A stretch of DNA of 31,224 nucleotides, taken from positions 1 through 31,224 of IMG/VR virus record IMGVR_UViG_3300033183_000031; one strand, 5' to 3'. This stretch comes from a virus. Position 1 is the stretch's first letter, and every line of letters begins with the position of its first letter. Under the pieces are notes generated by a model. It was not told where the DNA came from and searched no databases. It saw nothing but the letters and a program-made list of their open reading frames with translations. Positions 5,029 to 23,775 of this stretch are shown here, piece by piece. A program made the position numbers and the translations under genes.

Positions 5029-5073
5029 GGTTCACCTCGTTTGTCTTGTTGTCACACAAGAACGCAAAGAGGA

Positions 5074-5086
5074 TCAACGCACAAAA
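5074..5086 (-). promoter_or_regulatory. Putative late promoter element upstream of tail fibre
   Basis: Minus strand TTTTGTGCGTTGA. The identical 13 bases occur at 19982-19994, and in both places the element begins 46 bases before the start codon. Its first 8 bases (TTTTGTGC) are repeated 14 bases upstream, at 5093-5100, ending at the stop of the gp16-like gene. A small hairpin (CTTGT / ACAAG, 5045-5060) lies between the element and the fibre ribosome site. No clear TATAAT-like -10 follows, so the cognate polymerase is unknown. Confidence 0.5.
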
Positions 5087-5100
5087 TGTCTAGCACAAAA

Positions 5101-8100
5101 TTACTGCGCCCAAGCGCGGGTAATCTGATTTATATCATCCTTTAAAAACCACATTCTGGCAAAAGGAAGATTGCGAACAACTACTCGCGCACCCTCTCCA
5201 TATTCTCCGCTGGCAAACTGATATACCCCAGAGGCAGTATCAGCTGTCCAAGATGGTCCCGCTCCAGCAATCCCAGTAACAGCATCAAGTATACTAGGTT
5301 GTTGAGGGAACTTAGGAGATATAATGCCATTTGTAATGTTAGGCCCACCAAGAGCTAAAGATGTATGCATAGCAGTATAGAACAAGTCAGAATACAAAGC
5401 ACCAATACCGCTCATATCAAATGTTCTAGCAAACTTGTCACGCCAACTCATATTATCCCAAATATAATCTGGAGTACGAATAGATAGAGACATATAAGCT
5501 AAGCCAAATGCAGAGCCGACACCAAGCATTCTGTTTTTAACCTGACCTTGAGCAAACGCACCAACAGTTTTGTTTACGTTGGCAAGCATGTAACTGTAGA
5601 ACTGAAACGGCAGACCTAAGAAACCATTTTCAATACGAGTGTAACCTTTAAACTTAGCGTCTTCTTTGAAGCCAAACATGCGACCAATATGAGATGGAAT
5701 ATAAACAACACCATCATTAATAATTGGTTTGTCAGCAGGGGTTGCCGCCATAATTGTATTTAGCACACCACTATTTAAGGCAGACTTAAATGTCTGAACA
5801 GTTTCCTCATTAATAGTAGATTGCTTCTTCCATTCCTCTAAGGCCATACGATTCATTCGGTTTTCATAGTCAGGAACAGACTCGCCATCCATTTTCTTAG
5901 AACGTGAGTGCATAACCTCATGAAGCATTACAAAGTTAGACCACTGCTTTGGTGTCTTAAACACATCAGGCAAAGGCTCAACGCCCTCCATTTTTGGACT
6001 TAACCATGCCTTGCTGTCAAACATCTTTCCTTCAATGTATTCACGATCAAAGTAAATGCGATTTTCTTCTCTGCGGAAAAACGCTGGGACGTACCGACCA
6101 CCTATTATTTTACCAACAGGCGATCCATCTTCATTAACCTCAAGAATGTCTATGCGTTTGCCATCAACTTCAGGAATAAAAATATGATCGTTCCAGTGAT
6201 CAGTGTTGGCTAGATACAGACCATTCTCAGTCTTCTCCCAAGGAGCCTTGGCAATCTTCTCAGCTTGCTCGCGACCAATCCCATATTTAGCAAGCCAAGT
6301 TAGCTCTTGTTGAGTCAATTGATTGTATCGAATTGAGTAATCAATAATAGAATGACCATCAACAATACCAGCTAGTTGTTTAGCTAATACTGTCATTGGC
6401 CCCAAACCGTTCATTATGTGAAACGCATTTCGAGCATTGTTTAGCAATTCGCTTGCATCAAGATTGTTTGCCAAATCATCATGCAAGCGTAAGTGTGCGG
6501 AGCCAAGAAAAATATCTATTGCCTCACCAGCATATCTAGTTTGGTTTACAGCAACATTAACTTTATTCTTATCCATAAGAACCTGCATTCCACGAATAAC
6601 ATTCTCCATATCATGCTCCATAATGATACGAGAGAAATCAGGTAATGCAGCCAGACCAGCTGAACCAAGATAGTTAAGTGACGCTGCGTCACGCATAATT
6701 GCTGCAGTACGTTGGCTAAATGAATCAGGATCACGAAGAACAGCACCAGCAATTCGATCATACATGTGCATGTAGTCACGGCGCATACGGTTGATGTCTT
6801 TGTCTGAAAAGCCCTTTGAGATCATGTCGAACTCAAGATCAAACATAACGCCTTGAACATCTTGCCCAAACATCTTTGCATACTCAATGCGTGGCTCAAT
6901 CCGAGAAGCATAAGTCTTCATTGCTGCCAATGGATCGGTAACAATAAACTCAGTAACTAAACTGTTGGGAATGTCTATTTGACGATGGCGAAAATGCTTA
7001 GAGCGACCATAACCAAAACCAATGTTGTCAACATTAGTTGGATCAGTCTCACCAAGAATACGTTCAATAGTTAAGTCAACACGCTCTTGTATTTTCTCAG
7101 GACGCGCATCTAACTCTTTGCGTACAAACTGCGCAGTCTTTCGATCTAGTTCATAAACATACGGATTCTCAGTATACCACCTGTGCAAGATACCGCTAAG
7201 CTTAGAGCGATTCTTTCTAATAGCGCCCTTGTCCCAGAAACGAGGAAAGAAGACATCATTAGCCGCCCTGTTAGGCTCTAGGTCTTCTAGACCCATAAGA
7301 GACTGACGTTCATCTGCAAGCTTAGCACCAAGACGATTAAGCTCTGCTTTAATTAAACCAGCTTGCTTGCGTGACTTTGCTGTCTTCTTTGCTTCAGCGA
7401 CACTTAATCGACCATTTAGATTGTTAATTTTTGCTTCGAGTTGGGCAATGCGTTTCTCTAAGCCTTTTTGTGTGCCAATAAGGCCAGTGTCCTCTAGCCT
7501 GACTTGAGCATCCTCAAAGTATTTATTGATTACACCAATAGCTTTAATTTCGTTTTCTGTTAGATCAGCAGCTTTGTTAATTCTCTTTTCATTAACGCGA
7601 GTCAGCCATTTTTTGTAAGTATTTTCAGAACCAGAAATTTTTCTGCTAATCATTCCCAGATCAATATCTAGTTTGCTCGATGGCACTGCATTTGTATCTG
7701 CTCTCCAAAGAGTAAGCAGATCATCATGCGCCTTAACAAACAAACCACGGTTTGCAGCAGATCGCTGATGCACTGACTGAGGTGTAGGCAAACCAACTGA
7801 GTTCAAAGCAAGAGCAATGCCACTGTCTCCAAAGCTCTTAACAAAAGCTTCCTTAACAACTGTCGGATATTTAGACTGCAATGCTCGCTTCATTGGAGTC
7901 GTTACAGCTTTATATAAAAAACTATCTGTATATACAGAGTTCATAATACGAAACGGATCGTCCATATCTAAACCCATAGCCTCAAGTTCTCGCATTGCTT
8001 GCTCTTGCTTTAGAACTTGAGAGTAACCCTTCATCTCTTCAGACCTAGCTGCAAACATGCTAGACTGTGGCGTATCAGCATATTTAATAGCATCTGATTC

Positions 8101-8841
8101 CGCTCTTGCTGCCTCTGTGTCAAACATTTTAATCTGCTCAACTAGATACTCATCAGAATCATTGCCAAATCGACGCTCTGCTCTTGGAGTTCTTAATATC
8201 TCAGGAGTAATGTTGCCCATAAGATCAAGGCGACGAACCATCTGAAACTCTTCTTCAAGTGCAGCTTTTGTTTTTGTATACGCTCTTGTCTTTATGCCGC
8301 CAAATGCAGCGCCAAACCCTGCGCCAAACAAACCAGCAGCCAGTACATTTATTGCGCCCTCTTGTGCAGTTTGTAGAGGATCAGACTGTCTAGTTAATTC
8401 AACGCCAGCTTCTAATGCAGCAACCCCTGCGCCTACACGCAAAGCAGATCGACCAACACCAATAGCAGGGCCGCCAAAAGGTAAAGCAATCAAGTTAATA
8501 GGGTCAAAGATACCAGCACCAAACTGAGCAAGTATTGATGAGTTCTGCAATACCTGACGACGAGATGCAGACTCTTCAATTTGTTGCTTTAGTGCGGTCA
8601 TATGCTGTGGGCTAACAGCATGGTAAAGTTGTGGAGCAAACAACTCATACCCTTCTATGTCCTCTTTCCAGTCGTAACCTTCTTGGGGAGAGTAGCGAGT
8701 AGAGTTAGCTATCATGTTGTAAGCTGGAGCGTAACTATATCCCAGAGAAGCTTTCAGTGTATCAAAGAAAGACGGATCAGGCTGCTCAACTATATTGTTG
8801 TTAAAGTAACCAACACGAAAACTATTAACGTCAACTACCAC
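5101..8841 (-). CDS. gp16-like internal virion (ejection) protein with embedded zinc-metalloprotease motif
   Basis: The protein has 1246 residues, about the size of T7 gp16, and is the third gene of the ejection-protein set. It starts at GTG (8841), 6 bases after GGAGG and overlapping the previous gene by 11 bases. Residues 100-180 contain glycine/alanine-rich hydrophobic stretches suited to membrane insertion; about 450-510 is a coiled coil. T7 gp16 carries an N-terminal lytic transglycosylase; I see none here. Instead residues 974-978 read HEVMH, the HExxH zincin signature, within a segment (about 880-1005) that looks inserted between two ordinary ejection-protein stretches, with ENRMNRMALEEW downstream able to supply a glutamate ligand. 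By analogy it is ejected to form the periplasmic channel; the protease may cut the peptidoglycan layer or a host or virion protein. Confidence 0.8.
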   Translation of the reverse strand: MVVDVNSFRVGYFNNNIVEQPDPSFFDTLKASLGYSYAPAYNMIANSTRYSPQEGYDWKEDIEGYELFAPQLYHAVSPQHMTALKQQIEESASRRQVLQNSSILAQFGAGIFDPINLIALPFGGPAIGVGRSALRVGAGVAALEAGVELTRQSDPLQTAQEGAINVLAAGLFGAGFGAAFGGIKTRAYTKTKAALEEEFQMVRRLDLMGNITPEILRTPRAERRFGNDSDEYLVEQIKMFDTEAARAESDAIKYADTPQSSMFAARSEEMKGYSQVLKQEQAMRELEAMGLDMDDPFRIMNSVYTDSFLYKAVTTPMKRALQSKYPTVVKEAFVKSFGDSGIALALNSVGLPTPQSVHQRSAANRGLFVKAHDDLLTLWRADTNAVPSSKLDIDLGMISRKISGSENTYKKWLTRVNEKRINKAADLTENEIKAIGVINKYFEDAQVRLEDTGLIGTQKGLEKRIAQLEAKINNLNGRLSVAEAKKTAKSRKQAGLIKAELNRLGAKLADERQSLMGLEDLEPNRAANDVFFPRFWDKGAIRKNRSKLSGILHRWYTENPYVYELDRKTAQFVRKELDARPEKIQERVDLTIERILGETDPTNVDNIGFGYGRSKHFRHRQIDIPNSLVTEFIVTDPLAAMKTYASRIEPRIEYAKMFGQDVQGVMFDLEFDMISKGFSDKDINRMRRDYMHMYDRIAGAVLRDPDSFSQRTAAIMRDAASLNYLGSAGLAALPDFSRIIMEHDMENVIRGMQVLMDKNKVNVAVNQTRYAGEAIDIFLGSAHLRLHDDLANNLDASELLNNARNAFHIMNGLGPMTVLAKQLAGIVDGHSIIDYSIRYNQLTQQELTWLAKYGIGREQAEKIAKAPWEKTENGLYLANTDHWNDHIFIPEVDGKRIDILEVNEDGSPVGKIIGGRYVPAFFRREENRIYFDREYIEGKMFDSKAWLSPKMEGVEPLPDVFKTPKQWSNFVMLHEVMHSRSKKMDGESVPDYENRMNRMALEEWKKQSTINEETVQTFKSALNSGVLNTIMAATPADKPIINDGVVYIPSHIGRMFGFKEDAKFKGYTRIENGFLGLPFQFYSYMLANVNKTVGAFAQGQVKNRMLGVGSAFGLAYMSLSIRTPDYIWDNMSWRDKFARTFDMSGIGALYSDLFYTAMHTSLALGGPNITNGIISPKFPQQPSILDAVTGIAGAGPSWTADTASGVYQFASGEYGEGARVVVRNLPFARMWFLKDDINQITRAWAQ

Positions 8842-11800
8842 TTAGTGCCTCCAACATAGATTTTAGATGAAGCTCAAACTCATTAGCCATAGGATCATTA
8901 AGCGTAGATACTTGATCTAACATTCTGTTAATCATTCTAGGAATAGAAGTTGGTGAAGCCTGAAGTAGCTTTCTATAGTTAGATGAAACAGAGAGAGGCA
9001 ACCTTTCAAACAGTGGCTCAAATTGACGAGACTCTAATGCATCCAACATTATTGGAGCAATTGTTTGCTGGGCTGCAGAAGCTCTTTCTTCTTTTTCAGC
9101 AAAGAACTGCTCGCGTTCCTCCATAAACTGCGGCGTTGGCATAAAGGTCATACCACCCAATGGATTGATAAATGTCAGATCAGTTTCTGATGTACCTTTA
9201 GGGCCAACCAATGCCTCGGAAATTTGCTCATAACTAGCTTGCATTTCTTCTAATGAGGCCAATCTGCGATTACCCTCTTCAATAGCTGCTTCTTTATCCT
9301 TTTCAGTCTTCTTAGCTTTGTATCCTGCAAAGATTGGTTCATTTGTAGAAAAGAATGCTGGAATAACCACTGGCTCGTCGTTCTCATCAACATAGATTTC
9401 TACTTCTTGAAGATTACGAACACCCGCCTCATCAACAATAACTACGCCATAAGTCATGCCACGATCATCAGAATTAAAACCAACAGGCATTAATTTGAAC
9501 TCAGCTGTATTCCAGTCAATGTTTTTGTCTGTAGTCATTTGAGCCATAGACTTGCGGACATAGCTCATAAACGTATCTTCAAAACCTTTTACTGTAGAAG
9601 ATAATGGATACAAAGTTTTGTTAGAGCCAGCCGATGTAATGATCCGCTCATCCTCAACAAACTGGCTGTCAATTACACCCTTTAGGATGGTATCAATTTC
9701 CTCAAAACGTTTGTCATCTCTCGTTTCAGAAATGCTCTCAAAGTAGTGGACTTTAGCAGCACTTACCAATCGAGCAAACAAATTTGGATTTGTTAATGAC
9801 TCTGGGTAGTTTACGGAAATGTAATCTTCTACATTTTCAGTACGAGCTCTATTTGCCTTATTGCTTGCCTTGCGAGTAAAGAAGGCATCCATATCCTTAG
9901 ATAAGTTAGGATCAGCTATAGAACGGCTTACTTGCTGCAAGTGCTGCATCATAGCTTGAGGATCAGAGTTTGTTTCTGCAAAAGAAACCGCAGCATTCAT
10001 TAGTGCAATCTGATCTGCGTTAAGGCCAGATAGCCCACCTGAGTCAATCTCAAATCCAGCATCAGTTACATAAGACCGTGCAGATCGATAGGTAGAAAGA
10101 ACCCGCTTAACCTCACCCTCATCTGTAATTCGACCTGCTAAGAAAGAGTTGATTGTATCGTACTGAGCTTGAGGCCAATAAGATGGAGATATTTGCTGAA
10201 CAATAGCATTTGTTCGAGCGTCATCAGAATACTCAGGGTTTGTATAAAAATCAGCTGGTATGTTTAACTGACGATCAAGTTTTGCACGTTCAGCTGCTGT
10301 TAAGTCAGATGTGTCCCTTGCATTGTTAAGGACATCATTAAATAACTTTTGGTCTTGGATGTTTTGAATATTTGTTGCATATCGTTCATTTGCTCTTTTG
10401 CCATACTTATTTAAGTTTGTAGTAAAATAGCCAGGATCATCTGAGTTTTCCCGAGCAAGATCAATTGCTTTCTTTTGCTCTTCATTTAACAATGTAGCAT
10501 TAAAGTTTCTGTCTCGTGCATATTGCTGCATCTGATTAGTTACTTTTGGGTTTGATGCAGTGCTAAATGCAACTCGAAGATATTGACCAGAAACAAAGTT
10601 GCTAATCTGGCTCTTATAAGTTTCCTTGCTTGACGGCGACAATGCTGAGTAAAGCTCAGAATCCCGCTGTGTAATTAAATCCTCAAGATCGGCAGTTGTT
10701 TTGGCTTCAGTAAAGCTTGGGTAAAACTCATCTCTTAGATAATTATTGTAAGCAATAGCTGCATCCTGAAATGCTTTGTCCTCTTTGAACCGAACTTCAT
10801 CAGAAATGCTTTCTGCATATCTATCAGCTGCCTCGATCAAACCCGCCTGATTTGTTTGCTCTGCTACACTCAATAAGCTTGTCGCAAGACTGTTTGCTTC
10901 AGGACTTAACTTTGCCTTGTTCTCATCAGTAGGATTCTTTAAGAATGTTTGAATGTTAATAACATCCTCAACGCTCTCAGCCCCAGAAAACAATTTGCTA
11001 GTAAGCGCAGATGTCATGCTTTGAAGTCTAGCTGAAGACTCCATAGTGTATGACTCAACCTCTTGCTGGGTTGCTCCATTCCTAAATGCATTTAATCCAA
11101 GCTCTCGGTCTTGGAGGTAAGCATCAACTGCATCAGCAACAGAGCCAGTTAAACTCCAAGATGATGAGCCTAAAATATCAAAGTATTCTTGCGTTAAATC
11201 ATACTGGCTTGCAGCAGCTTCTGCTTGCCGCTGTCTTGTTTTGATTTCACGATCAAGACGTACTTGATTAATTCCATCAGTAATTAGCTCAGTTCCAAAT
11301 TGAGCAATGCTCTCACGGAATGAAGCTCCACGACCACCAAGCATTTTAGTTAGGTCAGTAAACACCCCACTGGGCATTCGACTTAGATCACCGCTATCTA
11401 TTGCAACCAAAGCTTGCTGCAAGTCGTAATCACTTACCCCCTCTTTAGTCGCCTTATAAAGTTCATATCTTAAAAGACCTCGCGCTTTAGCTTCATCTCT
11501 CTTAAGATCATTTCCAAGAGTAGCGTTTGGAAGTATTGTTCCAGCTTCAACATTAATACCATCAAGATTAACGCCAGCTGCTATAGTTCGTTGACCTAAC
11601 TCAAAGTTGCCAACCGCAAAAGCGTCTTCAATGCTAGATAGGTTTTCAGTGGAACTGTTTGCGTAAGCTAGCTGATCATTCTTTTCCTGACGAGCTTGCG
11701 CTTGTAGCTGCAATGCCCTGTATTTACTACCCTGTACGCTTGTTCCAATACTTTGGATCACTTGCTTAAATACAGTAGACTCTTCAACATTAGACATCTC

Positions 11801-12208
11801 GGCAATATAATCAGACATTGCTTGACGGAATGCTTCAGGACTCTTGCTAAATTGAATGGCCAGCTCTTTAGATTTGTCTTCAATCTCGGTGCTAATTTCT
11901 GTTTCAAAGCGCTGAAGCAATACTTGCTGATAAGCATTTTGAGCAATACGACCAAAACCTTTTGGACCTTCATAAATCTTGGGGCGACCAGTTTCTGGAT
12001 CAAGTTCAATAATCTCAGATCGCTCTAATCCTTGAGCGTATTCTATACCAGCTTTCTTAGCATCTTCAGCTGCACGTTGAGCAAGTTGTTGTTGTGCTTG
12101 CGCCCCCGCTTTAGCAACTGCTTCACCTACAATAACACCGCCACGAGATGCTCGTGCAACACCAACTGGTCCTATTTTAAACTGACGCTTTTCTCTAATA
12201 ACTGCCAT
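8831..12208 (-). CDS. gp15-like internal virion (ejection) protein
   Basis: The protein has 1125 residues, larger than T7 gp15 (about 750), almost entirely alpha-helical and soluble, rich in A, Q, E and S, with no cysteine noticed. The N-terminus is RQFKIGPVGVARASRGGVIVGEAVAKAG, followed by a long alanine/glutamine helix, a pattern typical of gp15-like proteins of marine podoviruses. It lies between the gp14-like and gp16-like genes, in the T7 order, overlapping the latter by 11 bases and 4 bases from the former. AGGAT precedes the ATG. The role (ejected during infection, building the trans-periplasmic conduit) is inferred from order and composition, not from a catalytic motif. Confidence 0.75.
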   Translation of the reverse strand: MAVIREKRQFKIGPVGVARASRGGVIVGEAVAKAGAQAQQQLAQRAAEDAKKAGIEYAQGLERSEIIELDPETGRPKIYEGPKGFGRIAQNAYQQVLLQRFETEISTEIEDKSKELAIQFSKSPEAFRQAMSDYIAEMSNVEESTVFKQVIQSIGTSVQGSKYRALQLQAQARQEKNDQLAYANSSTENLSSIEDAFAVGNFELGQRTIAAGVNLDGINVEAGTILPNATLGNDLKRDEAKARGLLRYELYKATKEGVSDYDLQQALVAIDSGDLSRMPSGVFTDLTKMLGGRGASFRESIAQFGTELITDGINQVRLDREIKTRQRQAEAAASQYDLTQEYFDILGSSSWSLTGSVADAVDAYLQDRELGLNAFRNGATQQEVESYTMESSARLQSMTSALTSKLFSGAESVEDVINIQTFLKNPTDENKAKLSPEANSLATSLLSVAEQTNQAGLIEAADRYAESISDEVRFKEDKAFQDAAIAYNNYLRDEFYPSFTEAKTTADLEDLITQRDSELYSALSPSSKETYKSQISNFVSGQYLRVAFSTASNPKVTNQMQQYARDRNFNATLLNEEQKKAIDLARENSDDPGYFTTNLNKYGKRANERYATNIQNIQDQKLFNDVLNNARDTSDLTAAERAKLDRQLNIPADFYTNPEYSDDARTNAIVQQISPSYWPQAQYDTINSFLAGRITDEGEVKRVLSTYRSARSYVTDAGFEIDSGGLSGLNADQIALMNAAVSFAETNSDPQAMMQHLQQVSRSIADPNLSKDMDAFFTRKASNKANRARTENVEDYISVNYPESLTNPNLFARLVSAAKVHYFESISETRDDKRFEEIDTILKGVIDSQFVEDERIITSAGSNKTLYPLSSTVKGFEDTFMSYVRKSMAQMTTDKNIDWNTAEFKLMPVGFNSDDRGMTYGVVIVDEAGVRNLQEVEIYVDENDEPVVIPAFFSTNEPIFAGYKAKKTEKDKEAAIEEGNRRLASLEEMQASYEQISEALVGPKGTSETDLTFINPLGGMTFMPTPQFMEEREQFFAEKEERASAAQQTIAPIMLDALESRQFEPLFERLPLSVSSNYRKLLQASPTSIPRMINRMLDQVSTLNDPMANEFELHLKSMLEALSGS

Positions 12209-12212
12209 ATTG

Positions 12213-12671
12213 CTATCCTGTTGGTGTTACTTTAGCTAAACTATCCTGATAGTCTGCATAACCTTGTGCCATTGTGGTAAATGCACCAATCATTGCAGCT
12301 TGTCTACGCGCCCTGCCCTCAATACGAGTTGCCGTTGCTTGTTGCTGAAGTTTCATAGCCTCAAAAACGCCCATCAAATCTGAGCGATTAGTATCTTCAA
12401 CTGCTATTTCTTTTTGCCTATCCAAAAATGCAGTCACAGATCGATCAGAAGATACATCCCGACCCATAGCAGAAAACGAAGCAATGTTTGCTTTCACATT
12501 ATATCGATATTGCTCAAGACGGTCATTGTGTCGTTGCAAAGCCTCAGTTTGACTTATGACTTTTTGCGTTTCAATATTAAAAGCATCTAGCTTTCCAGCT
12601 TCCTCAGCGGCTCTTCCAGCTGCAATTTGACCCGCTGCGCTAACACCAGCTGCAATAAGTTGCCAAACCAT
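12213..12671 (-). CDS. gp14-like internal virion (ejection) protein
   Basis: The protein has 152 residues, similar to or a little shorter than T7 gp14 (about 196). The N-terminus WQLIAAGVSAAGQIAAGRAAEEAG is a small-residue amphipathic helix able to insert in membranes. It is followed by a long helix (KLDAFNIETQKVISQTEALQRHNDRLEQY) and a C-terminal alanine-rich helix. This layout is characteristic of gp14-like ejection proteins, which form the outer-membrane pore during DNA entry. It precedes the gp15- and gp16-like genes, as in T7. GAGG lies 11 bases before the ATG. Confidence 0.75.
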   Translation of the reverse strand: MVWQLIAAGVSAAGQIAAGRAAEEAGKLDAFNIETQKVISQTEALQRHNDRLEQYRYNVKANIASFSAMGRDVSSDRSVTAFLDRQKEIAVEDTNRSDLMGVFEAMKLQQQATATRIEGRARRQAAMIGAFTTMAQGYADYQDSLAKVTPTG

Positions 12672-12696
12672 TAGACCATTAACCTCATTGCTAAAA

Positions 12697-15485: not shown

Positions 15486-15495
15486 GTGTAAAGTT

Positions 15496-15511
15496 GGGGG
15501 CCGAAGCCCCC
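15496..15511 (-). terminator. Rho-independent-like terminator after the capsid operon
   Basis: On the minus strand GGGGGC-TTCG-GCCCCC, a six-base-pair stem capped by a TTCG tetraloop, is followed by AACTTT. It stands between the small structural gene and the gp11-like gene, the position of the T7 T-phi terminator after gene 10. The U tract is poor, so partial read-through is likely. Confidence 0.65.
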
Positions 15512-15518
15512 ATCCCTA

Positions 15519-15788
15519 TTAGTCGCTGTCTGTTGATGTGATGGCAACGCCATCTACAACATCAACAGTGCTGCCATCATTTGCATTTACATATGTGTAA
15601 AAGACAGCAGGTGTTCCATCAGTGTCAGCAGCAACACAAACAATGTCATAAAGATTCAACATGTTTGCTGCATTGTTGAAGTAACCTGCAGTGTTTACGT
15701 CTGCTTGCGTATCTGTAGTTGTGTACTTCCAGAATGCAACGCCTGACGCGCCACCAATGCGAACTAGGTTTGCTGAGTTATAAGCCAT
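15519..15788 (-). CDS. Small structural protein next to the capsid gene (possible head decoration)
   Basis: The protein has 89 residues. The pattern NLVRIGGASGVAFWKYTTTDTQADVNTAGYF, then MLNLYDIVCVAADTDGTPAVFYTYVN, is a small beta-rich fold known from many phages, usually just downstream of the capsid gene. AAGGAGA precedes the ATG, and the gene sits between the major capsid gene (12 bases away) and the terminator, so it should be made at the same high level. That supports a stoichiometric capsid partner such as a decoration or cement protein, but this is inference from position. Confidence 0.65.
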   Translation of the reverse strand: MAYNSANLVRIGGASGVAFWKYTTTDTQADVNTAGYFNNAANMLNLYDIVCVAADTDGTPAVFYTYVNANDGSTVDVVDGVAITSTDSD

Positions 15789-15800
15789 AATTCAGTCTCC

Positions 15801-16610: not shown

Positions 16611-16690
16611 TTTTTCAGTCCTAAGTGAAGTTTCGGTTTGCTACGGGTATCTGCGTTTTCATCTCAGTTCGGGTATCCACAAGGGGCCGA
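16611..16690 (-). other. Leader of the capsid gene
   Basis: This 80-base untranslated stretch lies before the capsid ATG. On the minus strand GATACCCG occurs twice, 25 bases apart, and a modest ribosome site (AGGACTGAAAAA) precedes the start. No clear sigma70 -10/-35 pair is visible. The nearest promoter-like element is at 16746-16757, inside the end of the upstream gene. Confidence 0.4.
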
Positions 16691-17284
16691 TCAATGCACT
16701 ACAGGCCGTGATGTGCCATCATAAACATTTTTTCCGTTGGGATTACAACGCACAAAATCAACGTACTTGTGCGGCCCCATCGTTGCTACACCCACTGCTT
16801 CAAAGTCTAACCAAGCTGCCCAGTCTAAGACAAACTCAAAGTCACCGTTGATTGTCATTGATAAACCAGCGTGTGATTGATCGAAGAAGTTGACCAGCAT
16901 TCGTGATCCACGCGCCATTGCATGGAAGTTTTCTTTGATCTTGTCGGAAAACATTGCAAACATCTGAGGCCAAGTCTGATCGTCATCAAACCAAAGGCCG
17001 CCCACCATAATAAAGCTTTCGCCTTCTTTACGGCAGATGTAGCACTCTGACGTTTCATACATCTCAATCAAAGCTTCCCTTACGTCAACATGGCCTAGTA
17101 TTGCCAGTTCATGTCGGTTCTCTAAGCTGAGATTTTGAGCCACTTCTTCAACGTGGTCTAAAGTAAAAGGGGTAAGATAGAACTTACCCCTTTGCAGTAT
17201 CTTAATCTCGGTAGATGTTTTGGAACCCTTCGGTAACTTGCTTGATGAAGAGCGGGTCTTTATCTTTCCAGTACCTTGGGTCAT
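16691..17284 (-). CDS. GNAT-fold-like protein (T7 gp13-like)
   Basis: The protein has 197 residues. The central part (SECYICRKEGESFIMVGGLWFDDDQTW, then MARGSRMLVNFFDQSHAGLSMTINGDFEFVLDWAAWLDFEAVG) resembles the acetyltransferase-like fold of T7 gp13, a small virion-associated protein. The family role is assembly-related; enzymatic acetylation is not shown. The ATG at 17284 has GGGAG upstream and lies 83 bases inside the scaffold gene in another frame. Residues 1-30 are low-complexity (S, K, T) and run through the terminator at 17167-17194, so a later, non-ATG start is possible. The 3' end carries a copy of the late promoter element that could serve the capsid gene. Confidence 0.55.
   Translation of the reverse strand: MTQGTGKIKTRSSSSKLPKGSKTSTEIKILQRGKFYLTPFTLDHVEEVAQNLSLENRHELAILGHVDVREALIEMYETSECYICRKEGESFIMVGGLWFDDDQTWPQMFAMFSDKIKENFHAMARGSRMLVNFFDQSHAGLSMTINGDFEFVLDWAAWLDFEAVGVATMGPHKYVDFVRCNPNGKNVYDGTSRPVVH
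16746..16757 (-). promoter_or_regulatory. Putative late promoter element upstream of capsid gene
   Basis: Minus strand TTTTGTGCGTTG, identical over 12 bases to the elements before the tail-fibre and portal groups. It lies 136 bases before the capsid start, inside the last codons of the GNAT-like gene, where it encodes ordinary residues (FVRCN). The greater distance makes it less certain than the other copies. Confidence 0.35.
17167..17194 (-). terminator. Rho-independent terminator after the scaffold gene, inside the GNAT-like ORF
   Basis: On the minus strand AAAGGGGTAAG-TTCTAT-CTTACCCCTTT forms a perfect 11-base-pair stem with a six-base loop, followed by TACTTT. It begins 8 bases after the scaffold stop codon. 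It also lies within the 5' part of the GNAT-like reading frame, so terminated transcripts would lose that gene. Confidence 0.7.
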
Positions 17285-17936
17285 TCATCATCTCCCGAAG
17301 TTCGCGCTCTGATGTTTGCGCGGCTGGTTGTGTGTTACCAGCAAAGTTGCCATCCTTCATCGCCTCTTGGATTGCTTCAAGGGCGATGATTCCTTCGTGA
17401 CTCTCGCACATGCGCTCGATGGCTGGCAATGCTTCTTTTGGGAAAAACTTATTCGCGAACACAGAAGCTGCTTCAATTCGTGCTTCCGCATTGTCGCCAA
17501 GCTTTGAAGCTTCTGCCTCAAGGTCAGGCTGGTTGCCCATGACTGCCTGAGCATACATCTCAATCCCTTGTTCAAACTCTTCTTGACTGTAGCCATTCTC
17601 GAATGAATGTTCTGACCACCACTTCAATAGCTCATTGTCTACTGATGCATCCTGATCGATGCTATCTGGCAGTTGATAATCACCCGCTGTTTCTGGACGA
17701 CCACTAAACGCTTCATTTTGTATTTCTTCCATGATTGCGTTGCGGATGTCTTCTTCCTTACTGCCAAGCTTTGACTCAAGCTCTTTATATGCTTTAGCTA
17801 AATCTTCGCCTGTTTTGTATTTTTCAGGAAGCCATTCAGGTCGATCTGTAGCCTCTACCTGTTCTACATCTGCTTCTGTTACAAAGTCGCGCCCATCTGC
17901 TGCTGCTACTTCTACTGCTGCTTCTTGGTCACTCAT
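17202..17936 (-). CDS. Capsid assembly scaffold (T7 gp9-like)
   Basis: The protein has 244 residues, acidic and glutamate/alanine-rich. It contains RPEWLPEKYKTGEDLAKAYKELESKLG (about 32-58), a strong mark of podovirus scaffolds, then a helical middle and the C-terminal helix-turn-helix LREMMNDPRYWKDKDPLFIKQVTEGF, which in this family contacts the capsid protein. It lies between portal/Bbp19 and capsid genes, as expected. AGGAGT lies 7 bases before the ATG, and the start overlaps the upstream gene by 4 bases (ATGA). It would direct procapsid assembly and then leave or be recycled. Confidence 0.88.
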   Translation of the reverse strand: MSDQEAAVEVAAADGRDFVTEADVEQVEATDRPEWLPEKYKTGEDLAKAYKELESKLGSKEEDIRNAIMEEIQNEAFSGRPETAGDYQLPDSIDQDASVDNELLKWWSEHSFENGYSQEEFEQGIEMYAQAVMGNQPDLEAEASKLGDNAEARIEAASVFANKFFPKEALPAIERMCESHEGIIALEAIQEAMKDGNFAGNTQPAAQTSERELREMMNDPRYWKDKDPLFIKQVTEGFQNIYRD

Positions 17937-18190
17937 TTTTTACTCCTATGTGCGTGTGCTATACGCTGCTCAATAAGGCCAACAAGAAACCGTTGACCTT
18001 CATGGTGGCGTAACTCTTCCGTAGCCACATTTGGCCCATGCACCATTTCGATGGTGATGGATCGCAAATACCTTAATACTTCTTTGCCAGTTGGCGATTC
18101 AAATATCTGTGCAATGTTCTGGCTGATGATTACATCGTCTTCAGATTTGCGTTGGAGACCGTCGATCCCGATATTAACCTTGTTGCTCAA
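17933..18190 (-). CDS. Bbp19-like phage protein
   Basis: The protein has 85 residues. The pattern FESPTGKEVLRYLRS, then ATEELRHHEGQRFLVGLIEQRI, matches small proteins related to Bordetella phage BPP-1 Bbp19, which occur between portal and scaffold genes in many podoviruses. Function is unknown; position suggests a head-assembly role. The only suitable start is TTG (18190) after AGGGAAT, inside the last codons of the portal gene, so translation is probably coupled to the portal. The stop overlaps the scaffold start (ATGA). Confidence 0.65.
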   Translation of the reverse strand: MSNKVNIGIDGLQRKSEDDVIISQNIAQIFESPTGKEVLRYLRSITIEMVHGPNVATEELRHHEGQRFLVGLIEQRIAHAHRSKK

Positions 18191-19703
18191 GCATCATTCC
18201 CTGTTGTTGCTGCGCCATTTGCTGCGCTAATGCAGCTATTTGTCTACGCTGTTCTTCATCACGAATCAAGCTTTCTGGCACACCAAACTTTTTGGCAAGG
18301 TGAACGGCTGTCTGTTCACCATCAATTAATAGCTGCAACATCTCTGGGCCAAAGACCCCACCAACTAGTTCAAGGAAACGCGCAACACTTGAGATGTCTT
18401 GGTTTGCTTGGGCTTGCGCCAATGGCGATACTGATCTGACTTTAACCTCGCGACCATTCACTGTTGGTACTTCAATGCGTCCTTGCTTTTTAAGGATGTA
18501 TATAACTCGCTGAAGAACAGGTTGAACAAGCTCCGCTTGCAATCTGCCAAACGCAGAACCAATCCGACGAGATAAATCCGCCATGCGTTCCGCCACTTCT
18601 GTTGCGGTGGCAGGGGTTTTATCAGGATTACCAAGCATGTCGTTGTAAAGCGCTCGCTTAATATTAAGTCGCATATCGCTAAGAACCAACTGCGCAACAT
18701 CGAAACGACCCGCAGCTTGTAGTGGTTGTAAGCCCTGACTACCCATAGCTTTCGGAATGATTGAGCCAGGAACAAGTTGAATCGTGTCAGGGTTGATAAC
18801 ACCGTCATCCTCCATCTGATAGATGCCTGAGATTGCCATTTGCGCGTTCTCAAGGATCAATTCGATAGTCAGGTTGGTTGTTTTGATTGCCGCAAGTGCA
18901 TTGATAAGAGGCCCACGCCCATAAACTTCACCCGCACACTTCGACCAGCGGAAACAAATGAATGGGTTTGAACCTAGTCCACGCATTTCCTTCATGTGTA
19001 AAACAGTCTCAGTGGTCATACAAATAGCATAGTGAATGTACGCTTCTTCGTTTTTCCGTGAGTAGTCGCGACATACGACCTCTAAGACTGTTGTCTCTTG
19101 GTTTCGCCCCATCATTGACTTCACTTTGGCATCAAAGTTTGAGTTGGGGTACATCATCTCTAAATGATCGAACTTAACTTTCTTGCGCTCACGAAAGACG
19201 TGGTCAATTCTATCGTCGGGACCAGTGTCAAGGACAACATGGGGGAGCGGGATTGCTGAAAAGATCACTGGGTTTACTGCGTCTCCCTCTTCGACGCACA
19301 GGATACCAGTCCCGACAGCCAAGTCCATGAATGATTCATGCACTTCTTGGCTAAAGTTTGAGTTCTGAAGAACCTCGAACACATACTCAGTTACTTCATC
19401 CAACTCATTGTCTATTGTTTCACGTTGATCTGGCGGCACTTCACTGCCTGACATCAGATCAGCCCAACGCGCAAAGTTAGGAACTAGCCCTGATTGTAGT
19501 CTGCTCGCAAACTCTTGAACGCCAACAACCGCAGTTTCGTCAAAGATTTTTTCATCTCGACGTTGACCAGCTTCCTCATAGTAAAAAGATTCACGCTGTG
19601 GCAGCGCATACTCATAGCACTCTTCAAACAAAGGAACCCAGTTCTCGCGGAAAGCCTTCGCTTTGTTGTACTTCTCGACGTATTGTTTTGCGAGCTTATC
19701 CAT
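18174..19703 (-). CDS. Portal protein (head-tail connector, T7 gp8-like)
   Basis: The protein has 509 residues, close to T7 gp8 (536). Marks are WVPLFEECYEYALPQRESF near the N-terminus, then FDETAVVGVQEFASRLQSGLVPNFARW (about 55-80), KCAGEVYGRGPLINALAAIKTTN (about 245-265) and a glutamine-rich C-terminus. This is the dodecameric ring at the portal vertex through which DNA is packed and ejected. The start overlaps the stop of the small MCFGGG gene (TAATG), and the 3' end overlaps the Bbp19-like gene by 17 bases. Confidence 0.92.
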   Translation of the reverse strand: MDKLAKQYVEKYNKAKAFRENWVPLFEECYEYALPQRESFYYEEAGQRRDEKIFDETAVVGVQEFASRLQSGLVPNFARWADLMSGSEVPPDQRETIDNELDEVTEYVFEVLQNSNFSQEVHESFMDLAVGTGILCVEEGDAVNPVIFSAIPLPHVVLDTGPDDRIDHVFRERKKVKFDHLEMMYPNSNFDAKVKSMMGRNQETTVLEVVCRDYSRKNEEAYIHYAICMTTETVLHMKEMRGLGSNPFICFRWSKCAGEVYGRGPLINALAAIKTTNLTIELILENAQMAISGIYQMEDDGVINPDTIQLVPGSIIPKAMGSQGLQPLQAAGRFDVAQLVLSDMRLNIKRALYNDMLGNPDKTPATATEVAERMADLSRRIGSAFGRLQAELVQPVLQRVIYILKKQGRIEVPTVNGREVKVRSVSPLAQAQANQDISSVARFLELVGGVFGPEMLQLLIDGEQTAVHLAKKFGVPESLIRDEEQRRQIAALAQQMAQQQQGMMLEQQG

Positions 19704-19936
19704 TAATAGAACCTACCTAAGAAACCTTGACCGCCAGCACGGAACAATGAGCGACGACCAGCACCACCGCGCATACCGCCTCGACGTTCCGCTCTTGCTT
19801 CTAACGCTTGCGAAATGTCTTCACGTTTTTTTTTCGCGCGCTTTTCAATTTCTTCACGTTTAGCATAGTCAGCTTCAACACGTTGTTCTGCCGCAGCTTC
19901 TTTTTCGGCTTGAGAGGGGCCACCACCAAAACACAT
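19703..19936 (-). CDS. Small basic MCFGGG protein upstream of portal
   Basis: The protein has 77 residues, starting at the ATG at 19936 with a strong ribosome site (AAAAAGGAG, 7 bases away). It begins MCFGGGPSQAEKEAAAE, has a charged helix (E, K, R-rich, about 10-50), then a glycine/arginine-rich tail RRGGMRGGAGRRSLFRAGGQGFLGRF. Position before the portal matches that of small tail-assembly or core proteins in T7-like phages. The N-terminal peptide and an RRSL motif also occur in the protein at 22758-22973, so the two may be paralogues. Function unknown. Confidence 0.7.
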   Translation of the reverse strand: MCFGGGPSQAEKEAAAEQRVEADYAKREEIEKRAKKKREDISQALEARAERRGGMRGGAGRRSLFRAGGQGFLGRFY

Positions 19937-19951
19937 AACAATCTCCTTTTT

Positions 19952-19974
19952 GCTATTCGTATTCACAGAATAGC
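19952..19974 (-). promoter_or_regulatory. Leader hairpin before the MCFGGG/portal genes
   Basis: GCTATTC and GAATAGC form a perfect seven-base-pair stem with a nine-base loop, between the putative promoter element (19982-19994) and the ribosome site. It would form near the 5' end of the portal-group mRNA and could protect it or serve as a processing site. Confidence 0.4.
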
Positions 19975-19981
19975 GGAAAAC

Positions 19982-19994
19982 TCAACGCACAAAA
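19982..19994 (-). promoter_or_regulatory. Putative late promoter element upstream of portal group
   Basis: Minus strand TTTTGTGCGTTGA, identical over 13 bases to the copy before the tail fibre and again 46 bases before the start codon. The equal spacing argues for a promoter or another site fixed relative to the start. Confidence 0.5.
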
Positions 19995-19995
19995 C

Positions 19996-20012
19996 GTGGA
20001 AGATGCTTCCAC
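19996..20012 (-). terminator. Hairpin after TerL, possible weak terminator
   Basis: A perfect palindrome GTGGAAG-CAT-CTTCCAC lies 2 bases beyond the TerL gene. On the minus strand it is followed by GTTTTGTG, a short T-rich tail that is also the start of the promoter element. Termination and restart at one compact site is plausible; a protein-binding site is the alternative. Confidence 0.4.
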
Positions 20013-20014
20013 TT

Positions 20015-21538
20015 CTACATCCTCGACCAGACGTTGCTTCTGCGCTGCGTTCTTGGCTTTCGATTAAACACATCGAAGTTACGTTTGGCAACCATAGCTT
20101 GGGCTGGCTTCTGACTATTCATCAAGGCTCTGCCCTCACCAGCACCCAAGAATAGATACTGCGCTGCATCGTGAACGTGTGAAAACATGTTCTTATCTGG
20201 TTTATCTGCATATCTTTCGCCACTCACTTCCATGCGGCGATATTGGTATCCACCTTCAAAACCCTTGATAAGCTGGGGACAGCGCCGATCAATTAGGAGT
20301 GCTGGCTTCCCTTCAACCATCTTCGTCAACTGGGAAGAGACAGCCTCGAGGCGAAGGTCAACAGAGTTGGAAGGCGCGGGAAATGCCCTCAAGCCAGCAC
20401 CGCGCAGAATGTGAAAGGGAGTAGATTCATCAGTCTGCGCTCTAAAGTCACCAGCAGGATCGCCATAGATTATGACCTCACCAGCCGCCGAGAAACGAGT
20501 TGCCAATTCATTTCTAAGAACTTCAGCAAATCGCACAATGCCCATATCAATAGCAACAATCTCAGACTGAACAAGCCATCGACCTCTTACCTTTTGACCC
20601 AAAACAGCGGCGGGCGTTAAGCCAAAGTCAACGCCGACATATACTGGGACACCCGCAGCGACTGGAATCTCTTCTTTAGCAATGTGAACTTCTGGCGCAA
20701 ACATAGGATATACTGGCTTTCCGTCTTGAACATGACCAAGCCTATTCATTACATAGACATCGATCCAACTCTTAGTCTTACCGCGAATCAGGTTCGGATA
20801 ATAAGACTTCATCATGTGCTTTTGGTTCTCAGCCTCAGTGCTAGGCACATAATCCTCTAGCTCACCTTCCTCGTTCTTTACTTCTTTCATACCCGCAGGC
20901 TGGGTAAAGAACTGCCAGTTATCTGGCTTTACAAGCATCTTAGCTTGCTCTCGAGGAATATGGTCAGGGATTGGAACTTCCCCAGACATGATAGGCCACC
21001 AGTGATCTTCTTCAGGAGCGTTGGTATCCGCAATCACCCCAGTCCAACTAGGCCCACCGTCACGCATAGAAGGATAACGACCAACACGCATAGTACACGC
21101 ATCGATGATAGACTTCGGAACTTCTCGAGCCTCGTTAATCCAGATGCCAGTCAGTTCTAATGATAGCAGCTTCTTGACATCTTCAGGACGGTCTAAAGCT
21201 AAGAAGAGGACTTCGAGGTCAATGTCGCCCTTCTTGATATGATGGGTGTATGGGACTGACCATGTGAATTTGCCCCAGTCTGTTTCTGGGAACCAGTCAA
21301 GCCATGTCTTAATAGTTGTAGTTCGTAGCTGTGGGTTTGTGTTCCGTATAATAGCCCATCGAGACTTTCGCATTCCGTCTGGGCCTTTCTTTTGCTGAAG
21401 CGCCCGACGAAAGACTTCCACACAACACCCAACACTTTTACCACTCCCTACTGGCCCCCTAATCCCGCGAAAGAACGTATCGTCCTTCATAAACGACTTT
21501 AGCATTTCACCATCAGGCTTGTACTTAAAATCTATCAT
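20015..21538 (-). CDS. terL: Terminase large subunit (TerL)
   Basis: The protein has 507 residues. The ATPase half has Walker A GPVGSGKS (28-35) and a Walker B region LTGIWINEA (129-137) with the catalytic glutamate. The RNase-H-like nuclease half has VGVDFG (Asp304), YGDPAG (Asp360) and HVHDAAQYL (Asp457), the expected acidic triad. Together these pump DNA into the procapsid and cut the concatemer. It works with TerS (23776-24153), from which it is separated by ten small genes. The start overlaps the upstream gene (ATGA). Confidence 0.93.
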   Translation of the reverse strand: MIDFKYKPDGEMLKSFMKDDTFFRGIRGPVGSGKSVGCCVEVFRRALQQKKGPDGMRKSRWAIIRNTNPQLRTTTIKTWLDWFPETDWGKFTWSVPYTHHIKKGDIDLEVLFLALDRPEDVKKLLSLELTGIWINEAREVPKSIIDACTMRVGRYPSMRDGGPSWTGVIADTNAPEEDHWWPIMSGEVPIPDHIPREQAKMLVKPDNWQFFTQPAGMKEVKNEEGELEDYVPSTEAENQKHMMKSYYPNLIRGKTKSWIDVYVMNRLGHVQDGKPVYPMFAPEVHIAKEEIPVAAGVPVYVGVDFGLTPAAVLGQKVRGRWLVQSEIVAIDMGIVRFAEVLRNELATRFSAAGEVIIYGDPAGDFRAQTDESTPFHILRGAGLRAFPAPSNSVDLRLEAVSSQLTKMVEGKPALLIDRRCPQLIKGFEGGYQYRRMEVSGERYADKPDKNMFSHVHDAAQYLFLGAGEGRALMNSQKPAQAMVAKRNFDVFNRKPRTQRRSNVWSRM

Positions 21539-21735
21539 CTAAGCCCCTTATCAACTCCAAACTTAATCATACGCTCAACAACCTCTGGGCCAATGCTGTC
21601 AATCATTTGATCGAGCATCTTATTGGTCACAAAGGTTGCGCCATGCTTTTCATCAAAGTGCTGGAAGTGAACCTTCTTAACAATACCTCGAAGCATCGCA
21701 AGCTCTTCCTGCTTCAGCGTATTGGTAAAGCTCAT
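21535..21735 (-). CDS. Small hypothetical protein before TerL
   Basis: This 66-residue soluble protein has two predicted helices (LKQEELAMLRGIVKKV and LDQMIDSIGPEVVERMIKFG). I do not recognise a function. It overlaps its neighbours on both sides by 4 bases (ATGA), so it belongs to the coupled run between TerS and TerL. A role with the packaging motor is possible from position only. Confidence 0.6.
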   Translation of the reverse strand: MSFTNTLKQEELAMLRGIVKKVHFQHFDEKHGATFVTNKMLDQMIDSIGPEVVERMIKFGVDKGLR

Positions 21736-21923
21736 TTCTTTTTAGCCGCTATTTTCTTTTTGGGCGCAGCTTTCTTTTTGGGTGCTGGCTTAGGCTGGGG
21801 AAGATTAGGCACATGTACGAGTCGCCGCGAATCACGGGTGCGAGTTGCTCCTGAGTACGTTGTTCCTGCAAGCGTATGTGTTTCTCCAATGTATGGAGTG
21901 CCATCCGAAAATGTCCAAGCCAT
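21732..21923 (-). CDS. Small protein with histone-H1-like lysine/alanine/proline tail
   Basis: The protein has 63 residues. The first 38 residues (WTFSDGTPYIGETHTLAG...SGATRTRDSRRLVHV) match a short 'G.PY.G.THT' domain that recurs in small phage proteins. The last 20 residues alternate KPAPKKKAAPKKKIAAKKK, like histone H1 and bacterial H1-like tails, and should bind nucleic acid. It shares one base with the upstream gene (TAATG) and four with the downstream one. DNA binding is inferred from composition. Confidence 0.6.
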   Translation of the reverse strand: MAWTFSDGTPYIGETHTLAGTTYSGATRTRDSRRLVHVPNLPQPKPAPKKKAAPKKKIAAKKK

Positions 21924-22087
21924 TACTTCTTCCTCGCTTTTGCTGCTAGTTCTTGAAACTTCTTTTTACCGTATTTCTTGCGACCAATTGCAGCCGCTAA
22001 AGCCTTTGGGTCTTTTACGCCCTGCTTTTTAAGTTGGGCAGTAAGCAAAGAAAAACGCTCACCAGTTCCTAATTTAGGCTTCTTCAT
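21923..22087 (-). CDS. Small basic phage protein (54 residues)
   Basis: Sequence pattern LGTGERFSLLTAQLKKQG, then DPKALAAAIGRKKYGKKKFQELAAK. This 'ALAAxIGRKKYGKKKF' family is widespread in phage genomes near terminase genes but uncharacterised. It is strongly basic (about a quarter lysine or arginine). It overlaps both neighbours by 1-4 bases. Confidence 0.65.
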   Translation of the reverse strand: MKKPKLGTGERFSLLTAQLKKQGVKDPKALAAAIGRKKYGKKKFQELAAKARKK

Positions 22088-22332
22088 GTCCGATACTTCC
22101 TAACTTTTTCAGCAGTTTTCTTTGGCTGCTTTGAAAACTGTTTTCCCGCCTTTAGTGCTTTCCGCTTTAGCGCAGAAGAACGAGCATATTCACTATCGCT
22201 TAACGCCTTGATAGCCGCCTCGGGCAGATACCGCTCACCAGTTGCTTCCTTACCTTGCGTAGAAGGTTTGCCAGACTTGGTGCGCCACTTCTGCTTAGTC
22301 CAAGCTCTTAGTGATTTCTGCGGAGCCTTCAC
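22084..22332 (-). CDS. DUF5872-like small basic protein
   Basis: The protein has 82 residues, starting at GTG (22332) that overlaps the upstream stop (GTGA). The pattern SLRAWTKQKWRTKSGKPS, TGERYLPEAAIKAL and a C-terminal KQFSKQPKKTAEKVRKYR matches the DUF5872-like family found in phages and algal viruses. Its function is unknown; the strong positive charge suggests nucleic-acid contact. The family call is from memory of the pattern, not a search. Confidence 0.65.
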   Translation of the reverse strand: MKAPQKSLRAWTKQKWRTKSGKPSTQGKEATGERYLPEAAIKALSDSEYARSSALKRKALKAGKQFSKQPKKTAEKVRKYRT

Positions 22333-22499
22333 GATGTATAGCCCCCGCCTTTAGCTTTGTATTGCTTTGCTAACATCTGCGCCTTACGAGCAGACCATTG
22401 CCCAGGCTTTCCACCTTTGCCACTCGCTTTAATCCGCTTGAACAGCGACTTCCGCATAGTTGGCTTGGTATAGTTACCCGCTGCATTCACCGTACTCAT
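22329..22499 (-). CDS. Small basic protein with GQWSARKAQ motif
   Basis: The protein has 56 residues. The pattern TKPTMRKSLFKRIKASGKGGKPGQWSARKAQMLAKQYKAKGGGY is a small family common beside the DUF5872-like gene in phages. Function unknown, strongly basic. The ATG overlaps the upstream TGA, and its stop overlaps the next GTG, so it is translationally coupled on both sides. Confidence 0.65.
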   Translation of the reverse strand: MSTVNAAGNYTKPTMRKSLFKRIKASGKGGKPGQWSARKAQMLAKQYKAKGGGYTS

Positions 22500-22765
22500 G
22501 GCGTTTGAGCCTCTTGAACTTTGTCCTTCATCCGATCTTGGCGCATCATATTCGCCTCGATCTTCTCGACCTTCTTCAACAGCGAACGGTATTTCGGGTT
22601 TACCGCATGCTGCTTATCATCAGTCACACCCTTGCGAACAAACTCTTTAACCTGACGACGAAGCTTAGAAAACGCACTAAAATCCTTTGGCGTGTTATCA
22701 AGCTGTTTATTCAGCATCTCATAACGAGCCTTCATCAAACTCGCAGGGCTTTGTCCTTTAGGCAT
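22496..22765 (-). CDS. Hypothetical helical basic protein
   Basis: This 89-residue protein is nearly all alpha-helical and charged (MKARYEMLNKQLDNTPKDF, FSKLRRQVKEFVRKG, LLKKVEKIEANMMRQDRMKDKVQE). No family recognised. It overlaps the upstream MCFGGG-type gene by 8 bases and the downstream gene by 4, in the compact run of basic genes. A coiled-coil structural or DNA-binding role is possible. Confidence 0.6.
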   Translation of the reverse strand: MPKGQSPASLMKARYEMLNKQLDNTPKDFSAFSKLRRQVKEFVRKGVTDDKQHAVNPKYRSLLKKVEKIEANMMRQDRMKDKVQEAQTP

Positions 22766-22973
22766 CGTCAGTCACTCCTAGTGGGTCTAATAAACTACGG
22801 CGCTTTGCACCTACTCGCTGCGTTGGAGACTCGAACCCAGTTCGAGCAACATCCTTCAACTTCTGCGGATCTCGCTTTGTCTTAGTCATTGCTAAAGAAG
22901 GAAGCGCACCAAACTTAGGCTTCTTACTCTGATAAATATCTTCGGCACTAGGCCCACCACCACCAAAACACAT
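22758..22973 (-). CDS. Second MCFGGG small protein
   Basis: The protein has 71 residues, beginning MCFGGGGPSAEDIYQ and containing RRSLLDPLG near the C-terminus. The N-terminal MCFGGG-PS and the RRSL motif match the protein upstream of the portal (19703-19936), while the middle differs. AAGGA lies 7 bases before the ATG. Likely a paralogue or a family sharing a terminal signal; function unknown. Confidence 0.65.
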   Translation of the reverse strand: MCFGGGGPSAEDIYQSKKPKFGALPSLAMTKTKRDPQKLKDVARTGFESPTQRVGAKRRSLLDPLGVTDDA

Positions 22974-22976
22974 AGC

Positions 22977-23249
22977 CTAATCCTTCTTCTTATGACGCTT
23001 TGCAAAATTCCTAGCAGCCTCTACACTGCCAAATCCCCAAGCCTTCAATGCTAAAGCCTTCCGCGTAGGACGACCCTTCTCATCCTTCATCGGCCCCTTC
23101 ATTCCAGCAAACCGAGCAGCAAAAGAAACACGACGAGGATTAGTCCCACTCTTTACTGGCGCTTTCAAATTAGCGCCCTCAGTACGCTTAAAGTAAGCAC
23201 GACCCGCAGAAGTCAATCCACCCTTCGGATTCTTATGCTCTTTCCTCAT
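22977..23249 (-). CDS. DUF6321-like small basic protein
   Basis: This 90-residue protein shows the order KGGLTSAGRAYFKRTEGANLKAPV, PRRVSFAARFAGMKGPMKDEKGRPTRKALALKAWGFGS, which I recall as the DUF6321-like family of phage and algal-virus proteins. Function unknown. Strongly basic. The ATG overlaps the TGA of the 30-residue upstream gene. Confidence 0.65.
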   Translation of the reverse strand: MRKEHKNPKGGLTSAGRAYFKRTEGANLKAPVKSGTNPRRVSFAARFAGMKGPMKDEKGRPTRKALALKAWGFGSVEAARNFAKRHKKKD

Positions 23250-23338
23250 TTACCCTTGCTCCCCAAAGCCGCCTTCGCATTCTGGTTGTTCGCAGTCTGC
23301 CGCGTCGCCTCTGGCTTCTTATCGCCAAATCTAGACAT
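23246..23338 (-). CDS. Mini-ORF of 30 residues
   Basis: It encodes MSRFGDKKPEATRQTANNQN and then AKAALGSKGK. The ATG overlaps the upstream TGA (TGATG) and its TGA overlaps the next ATG, so it fits exactly in the coupled chain; leaving it out would create the only sizeable gap here. It is basic and disordered. Function unknown. Confidence 0.5.
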   Translation of the reverse strand: MSRFGDKKPEATRQTANNQNAKAALGSKGK

Positions 23339-23622
23339 CAGCGACCTGTATCATTCTCTCGAAGCGTTACCTCAACAGTCCCACTCGTAAAATCCCCAGT
23401 CTTCACGCCAGCACGATACTGAGCCCCAACACCCTCGTACCCATTCCCCTCATACTGAGAAGTAAACGTGTCAACATCAGCCCAAGTAGAACCATCAAAA
23501 CTACGCTGAACAGTAACAGTCGCACTGAACGTACCACCAATGCTCAATGAAAAATCACCACGCAAAGAAAGTCCGTCACTAAACGTGTTTTGCGCAGTAA
23601 TAGATTTAGTAACTACATCCAT
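23338..23622 (-). CDS. Small beta-rich phage structural-type protein
   Basis: The protein has 94 residues, starting at the ATG at 23622 (AAAGGAGA, 7 bases upstream). The sequence SLRGDFSLSIGGTFSATVTVQRSFDGSTWADVDTFTSQYEG is a beta-sandwich-like pattern ('G.FSATVTVQRSFDGSTW') common in phage proteins of unknown role. A virion-surface or decoration role is a reasonable guess. A putative late promoter element lies 48 bases upstream, which would make it the first gene of its transcript. Confidence 0.65.
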   Translation of the reverse strand: MDVVTKSITAQNTFSDGLSLRGDFSLSIGGTFSATVTVQRSFDGSTWADVDTFTSQYEGNGYEGVGAQYRAGVKTGDFTSGTVEVTLRENDTGR

Positions 23623-23775
23623 AGCCAATCTCCTTTTACTGGCACCCTACAGTAAAAAAAATATTTCTGGCAATGCACAAACTTGTAGAGAAAAAAATGA
23701 CTGAGAGAGACTATTACAGTAACACACTGCCACGTTTTTCCCCCTACCCCCCTGTCGCAGACAGCTGAAAAACAA
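23623..23775 (-). other. Intergenic region between TerS and the small gene cluster
   Basis: This 153-base gap holds a late-promoter-like element (23671-23682), an A/T-rich run, a C-rich tract on the plus strand (23740-23752) and a short hairpin CTGTC-GCA-GACAG (23752-23764). I see no gene in it. The hairpin plus G-rich tail on the minus strand does not look like a standard terminator. Confidence 0.5.
23671..23682 (-). promoter_or_regulatory. Putative late promoter element, diverged copy
   Basis: Minus strand GTTTGTGCATTG, two mismatches from the TTTTGTGCGTTG core. It lies 48 bases from the next start codon, nearly the same as the 46 bases at the two best copies. It is followed by an A/T-rich stretch (AAATATTTTTTTTAC). 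Confidence 0.4.

Follow-up and report, generated by a model that had tools for sequence, protein, structure and literature searches.

The question raised by this locus is what purpose is served by a short word that recurs on one strand ahead of late gene groups, and which factor reads it. In the window (the whole stretch of DNA analysed, a 31.2 kb virus record, IMGVR_UViG_3300033183_000031) the late genes occupy the minus strand and the early genes the plus strand. Structural-family matches were recorded for terminase, portal, capsid, two tail-tube proteins, internal virion proteins and a tail spike or fibre, and every ORF longer than 300 codons gave such a match with the single exception of that at 8831-12208 (1125 residues), which matched no family and sits at the position usual for an internal virion protein. 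The early side encodes a YqaJ recombinase, a Sak annealing protein and a RusA-like resolvase (27264-27623). Judged by terminase (65% identity), the nearest cultured relative is Pelagibacter phage EXVC031P Hodr.

The recurrent late-strand element reported in the preliminary description proved to be real. Three exact copies of the 12-mer TTTTGTGCGTTG were observed on the late strand, against an expectation of 0.003-0.006 (Markov order 1-3), together with a fourth copy bearing two mismatches, and TTTTGTGCGTTG is the sole 12-mer present at least three times on that strand of the window. The boxes, named for the late promoters proposed below, are as follows.

23671-23682, minus strand: box of the first late promoter, GTTTGTGCATTG, the two-mismatch copy, found at the same place in relatives
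19983-19994, minus strand: box of the portal promoter, TTTTGTGCGTTG, within the gap that follows terminase
16746-16757, minus strand: box of the capsid promoter, TTTTGTGCGTTG, inside the end of ORF 16691-17284 and under codon constraint
5075-5086, minus strand: box of the tail-fibre promoter, TTTTGTGCGTTG, from the window sequence and relatives
5093-5100 (within 5087-5100), minus strand: upstream half-box of the tail-fibre promoter, TTTTGTGC, kept as ATTTGTCCTAG in relatives

Three of the copies lie, as had been described, in gaps between genes (5029-5100, 19937-20014 and 23629-23775); the capsid copy does not, being located within the end of the preceding ORF, with the capsid start about 145 bases further on. 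The distances of 46, 46 and 48 bases to the start codon were likewise upheld, with the correction that the count begins at the element's 3' edge and not at its start. Upstream of the tail-fibre box by about 14 bases, the half-box TTTTGTGC may provide a further binding site. One more match, a looser one with one mismatch at 27413, falls within an early-region gene and was placed outside the element set.

IMG/VR scans conducted with capsid, terminase and tail genes covered at least 225 loci, two of the scans each returning at least about 600 matched stretches. Among the matches listed, the core TTTGTGCGTTG, with no more than one mismatch, occurred in 248 distinct contexts, with the opposite strand accounting for about 20; when matches inside portal and other genes were set aside, those remaining lay ahead of the first late genes, the portal, the capsid or the tail fibre, four places in all. 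In 19 large or near-complete genomes (573 kb) the strict element, defined as the asymmetric 11-base box TTTGTGC[GA]TTG, had 61 copies on the late strand and 0 on the other, and the motif search in relatives proposed in the preliminary description thus showed the word to be equally frequent neither inside genes nor on the two strands. A box variant, TTTGTACGTTG, was noted at the capsid site of four relatives (L063, L068, L125 and L222) and at the tail-fibre site of two (L183 and L191). In many element-free relatives the portal-site gap is wholly absent, and at the first late site of box-free relatives a T-rich spacer and a -10-like word are retained. No equivalent recurrent word was found at the equivalent places in Hodr, MEP301, G001 and G020.

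The coding copy at the capsid was subject to a codon test in which genes were chosen by the peptide FVRC and not by the element. The gene holding the capsid box was represented by 106 distinct ends among the matches listed, of which 90 encode FVRC, and the codons TTT GTG CGT were used in 85 of those 90 as against the 2% expected from gene-wide codon use; being related, the 85 genes do not constitute independent events. In element-free relatives the amino acids are altered (FIYC, FIRC), or FVRC is kept with GTT (L148). It follows from this codon bias, taken with the changes in the element-free relatives, that the DNA word is held and not the peptide alone. Fixed positions, strand bias, synonymous constraint and the closing of gaps on loss of the element thus bear out its description as a phage-specific late promoter element.

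Alignment of relatives anchored on the box revealed a second conserved component, a -10-like motif, TGyTTAcGAw, located 18-19 bases past a -35-like triplet. The corresponding words in the window, and the hexamer of the terminase small subunit (TerS) promoter, are given below.

23644-23651, minus strand: -10-like word of the first late promoter, TGTAGGGT, from the relatives' alignment and kept where the box is lost
19956-19965, minus strand: -10-like word of the portal promoter, TGAATACGAA, from the alignment of relatives
16718-16727, minus strand: -10-like word of the capsid promoter, TGTTTATGAT, from the alignment of relatives
5048-5056, minus strand: -10-like word of the tail-fibre promoter, TGTGACAAC, from the alignment of relatives
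24408-24413, minus strand: TTGACA of the TerS promoter, the hexamer to which the box is fused in seven relatives

When aligned on the last G of the box, the portal sites read T18 G19 ... T22 A23. G25 A26 A27; the capsid site carries the -10-like word of the portal shifted one base further, and the word at the first late site is TGTTATAGGG-like. The element had been described as lacking a normal -10, a statement that is correct only in part, a conserved -10-like word being present; this word matches TATAAT poorly. A sigma-70 consensus scan found no promoter at the four late sites, a result to be expected of activator-dependent promoters. At the TerS promoter, TTGACA is kept in 91 of the 107 distinct regions among the matches listed, and in seven of the 107 the box is fused directly to it (GTGCGTTGACA); because of this fusion, the final TTG of the box probably represents the start of the -35, with a spacer of 18-19 bases.

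Both the spacing of box and -10-like word and the TTGACA fusion fit a DNA site, and hence weigh against a reading in which the element acts in RNA, whether as a processing site, an anti-termination site or a terminator tail. That three copies are located in leaders, and that the portal copy in the window has a short hairpin (19996-20012) ahead of it, would suit such a role, but the hairpin before the box is not conserved in relatives; the terminator-tail version was rejected on that ground, and action in RNA as a whole is regarded as very improbable.

The TTGACA of the TerS promoter is adjoined by a palindrome, GTGACGTTACGTCAC (window 24417-24431), which is kept in many relatives, and a direct repeat, TGTTTATGTCGACT, lies downstream at 24240 and 24269 (24240-24281). 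Palindrome and repeat are likely to be operators of a divergent early/late control region.

With respect to the factor that reads the box, the preliminary description had looked to a sigma-like factor or polymerase encoded outside the window. Neither was found: sigma-70 region 2 (PF04542) was absent from 11 genomes in a search of which the positive control was detected in 10 of 14, and T7-type RNA polymerase (PF00940) gave no match in 11 genomes in a search run without a positive control. Since the phage is without a recognisable polymerase or sigma factor of its own, use of the host RNA polymerase is proposed. The factor that does covary with the element lies inside the window. Comparison of gene content between genomes with the element and element-free genomes singled out one early gene whose product has a recognised regulator domain.

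26889-27137, plus strand: 82-residue HTH_3/XRE protein of the early operon, candidate late activator, from PF01381, PHROG, covariation and a structural model

The neighbours of this HTH gene are the RusA-like resolvase gene and 26732-27016, the protein product of which belongs to no family, has no PHROG match, and carries an invariant TSTYYR motif; it is kept with or without the HTH gene. This HTH-like neighbour was rejected as the factor, occurring as it does in element-free genomes too, as was an XRE protein at 30510-30857, which was detected in 1 of 20 relatives, and weakly.

The HTH gene was present in 15 of 15 element-bearing genomes in which the early locus was covered and in 0 of 4 element-free genomes; in two of the latter (G001 and G020) both flanking genes are present and only the HTH gene is missing. 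The pattern of gene and box was unchanged by added contigs. When only strict boxes were scored, they accompanied the HTH gene in 50 of 51 distinct terminase rows, as against 0 of the 3 rows without the gene (Hodr among them), the exception being L470, in which the HTH gene occurs with one-base variant boxes. At the first late site, 44 of the 65 genomes that carry the HTH gene had the box, against 0 of the 7 that lack it (p = 0.0008), a Fisher value of 8e-4 that, like a second of 2e-4, ignores shared ancestry; the remaining 21 of the 65 possess the gene without a box at that site. An independent-pairs test on the terminase tree, which scored the terminase-portal gap only, had too few pairs for significance. 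On the same tree, when a few short contigs whose portal sites are degenerate and the exception L025 (below) are set aside, the element-free genomes comprise two separate ingroup clades plus outgroups, and in both ingroup clades the representative with a covered early locus lacks the HTH gene. As judged from these comparisons of sequence, loss of the gene went together with loss of the boxes, separately in each of the two ingroup clades.

Two further observations concern single relatives. Although L025 falls by terminase within an element-free clade, a box is retained at its first late site (L025:337), whereas its portal and capsid sites have none. Hodr encodes a larger early-region protein (L230:15431-15958) in which 55 residues give a distant match to the HTH (40%); the box is absent.

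The covariation also bears on the possibility that an alternative sigma factor, of phage or host origin, or a T7-type polymerase reads the box as a -35, the HTH gene being merely linked. A two-part motif with fixed spacing does resemble a sigma-type promoter, but no sigma-70 region 2 was encountered in the 11 genomes searched with a working control, and no single-subunit polymerase in the search without one. Moreover, a host factor would leave unexplained those relatives with near-identical capsids that are without the box, and these same relatives are without the HTH gene. Such a reading is consequently held to be improbable.

A possible change of specificity was apparent at residue 46 of the HTH protein, in the turn before the recognition helix. 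Cysteine is replaced there by valine or isoleucine in seven genomes (L459, L460, L462, L467, L470, L452 and L456), in 7 of 7 of which the intergenic boxes read TTGTGAGTTG, and genomes with Cys46 retain TTGTGC[GA]TTG boxes. Because the substitution is confined to a single clade, and because the coding capsid copy in that clade stays TTTGTGCGTTG, the apparent switch is a lead and not proof, and may possibly be a coincidence.

Characterisation of the predicted protein confirmed a match to PF01381 (HTH_3) at 34.3 bits (cut-off 23), and an AlphaFold model returned a four-helix HTH fold (pLDDT 81). The nearest solved folds were HipB, C.AhdI, C.BclI, C.Esp1396I and P22 c2, with weak Foldseek E-values (best 1.4e-3), and the top PHROG was phrog_4836, 'CII-like regulator' (2e-7, HTH portion only), with repressor families close behind. 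The protein contains only two cysteines, C46 and C68.

A protein of this type could be a repressor or co-regulator. If the box were an operator through which the HTH protein held the late promoters down at early times of infection, repressor and operators would have been lost together, an outcome with which the joint loss of gene and box agrees equally well; HTH_3 proteins are, furthermore, often repressors, and repressor families are among the PHROGs matched. The position of the box is nevertheless upstream of the -35, at most overlapping its first bases, most of these promoters are without a consensus -35/-10 unless an activator acts, and expression from the early operon would supply a repressor just when the late genes are needed. 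Activation rather than repression is thus inferred from the position of the box together with the want of a complete core promoter, and repression through the box is considered unlikely.

The explanation preferred, with fairly good confidence, is that the element represents the activator-binding half of four late promoters served by host RNA polymerase and the candidate 82-residue HTH activator. The HTH protein would accumulate early, from the early operon, and bind the box at about -44 to -34, where it would touch the sigma-70 region of the host RNA polymerase, a contact that would compensate for a weak, long-spaced core promoter; the packaging, portal, capsid and tail-fibre transcripts would thereby be switched on separately. 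A broader proposition, the prospects of which are put at slightly less than even, is that the whole late regulon, an XRE-type activator with all of its four scattered boxes, has been taken apart as a unit more than once in a very abundant group of marine phages, with bare core promoters left behind, and that in one clade the specificity of activator and boxes shifted jointly. If concerted dismantling and a specificity switch were both true, the recognition code of the activator would be readable from metagenomes alone. Podovirus-like genomes of this type, in which no polymerase was recognised, are frequent in marine viromes (IMG/VR, at least about 600 matched stretches in each of two scans), and the present analysis supplies a concrete candidate answer: it names a box and a candidate activator, predicts the register of the promoters, and offers natural variants in which the box is lost or switched.

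Comparison with established systems places this arrangement among phage regulons without equating it with any of them. T7 has extra late promoters before its capsid and tail-fibre genes, and late promoters lie ahead of the same genes here; by way of contrast, no T7-type polymerase was found (a search without a positive control), and there is no contiguous promoter of 20-odd bases. Lambda CII, a tetramer, controls lysogeny promoters through TTGC-N6-TTGC, a direct repeat that flanks the -35. It is a phage HTH activator working around the -35, as is proposed for the window protein, and the best PHROG match of the latter, phrog_4836, bears its name, although over the HTH only and with repressor families matched too; the candidate activator differs in that late genes are concerned and that a single TTTGTGCG box abuts the -35 at most sites. 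Marine isolates of similar type have been described with neither a phage RNA polymerase nor a late-promoter motif reported (PMC8024684, PMC10504331), and nothing on a box or late promoter for these phages was found in the part of the literature covered.

The mechanism envisaged for the HTH protein is by analogy that of C.Esp1396I, which recruits sigma from an upstream site (PMC4041747). The activator-type controller proteins C.AhdI and C.Esp1396I, from restriction-modification systems, are similarly single-domain HTH_3 proteins of about 80 residues and are among the closest folds. However, they act on another operator and other genes, their identity to the window protein is only 22-30%, and they are encoded beside an endonuclease or methyltransferase gene, a neighbour that the HTH gene of the window does not have.

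The late regulon of P2, in which the Ogr activator serves four late promoters through TGT-N12-ACA (PMC3931495), offers a further parallel, both systems having a small phage-encoded activator, a recurrent box before four late operons and, as proposed here, transcription by host RNA polymerase. The differences lie in the components: Ogr is a CX2CX22CX4C zinc finger, whereas the present candidate is an HTH_3 protein with two cysteines, and the P2 box is a dyad, whereas the asymmetric 11-base box adjoins the -35 and has no conserved ACA arm. With zinc finger and dyad box both absent, the system is not a member of the P2 Ogr family; it is best read as a late regulon that resembles that of P2 Ogr in logic and not in protein family.
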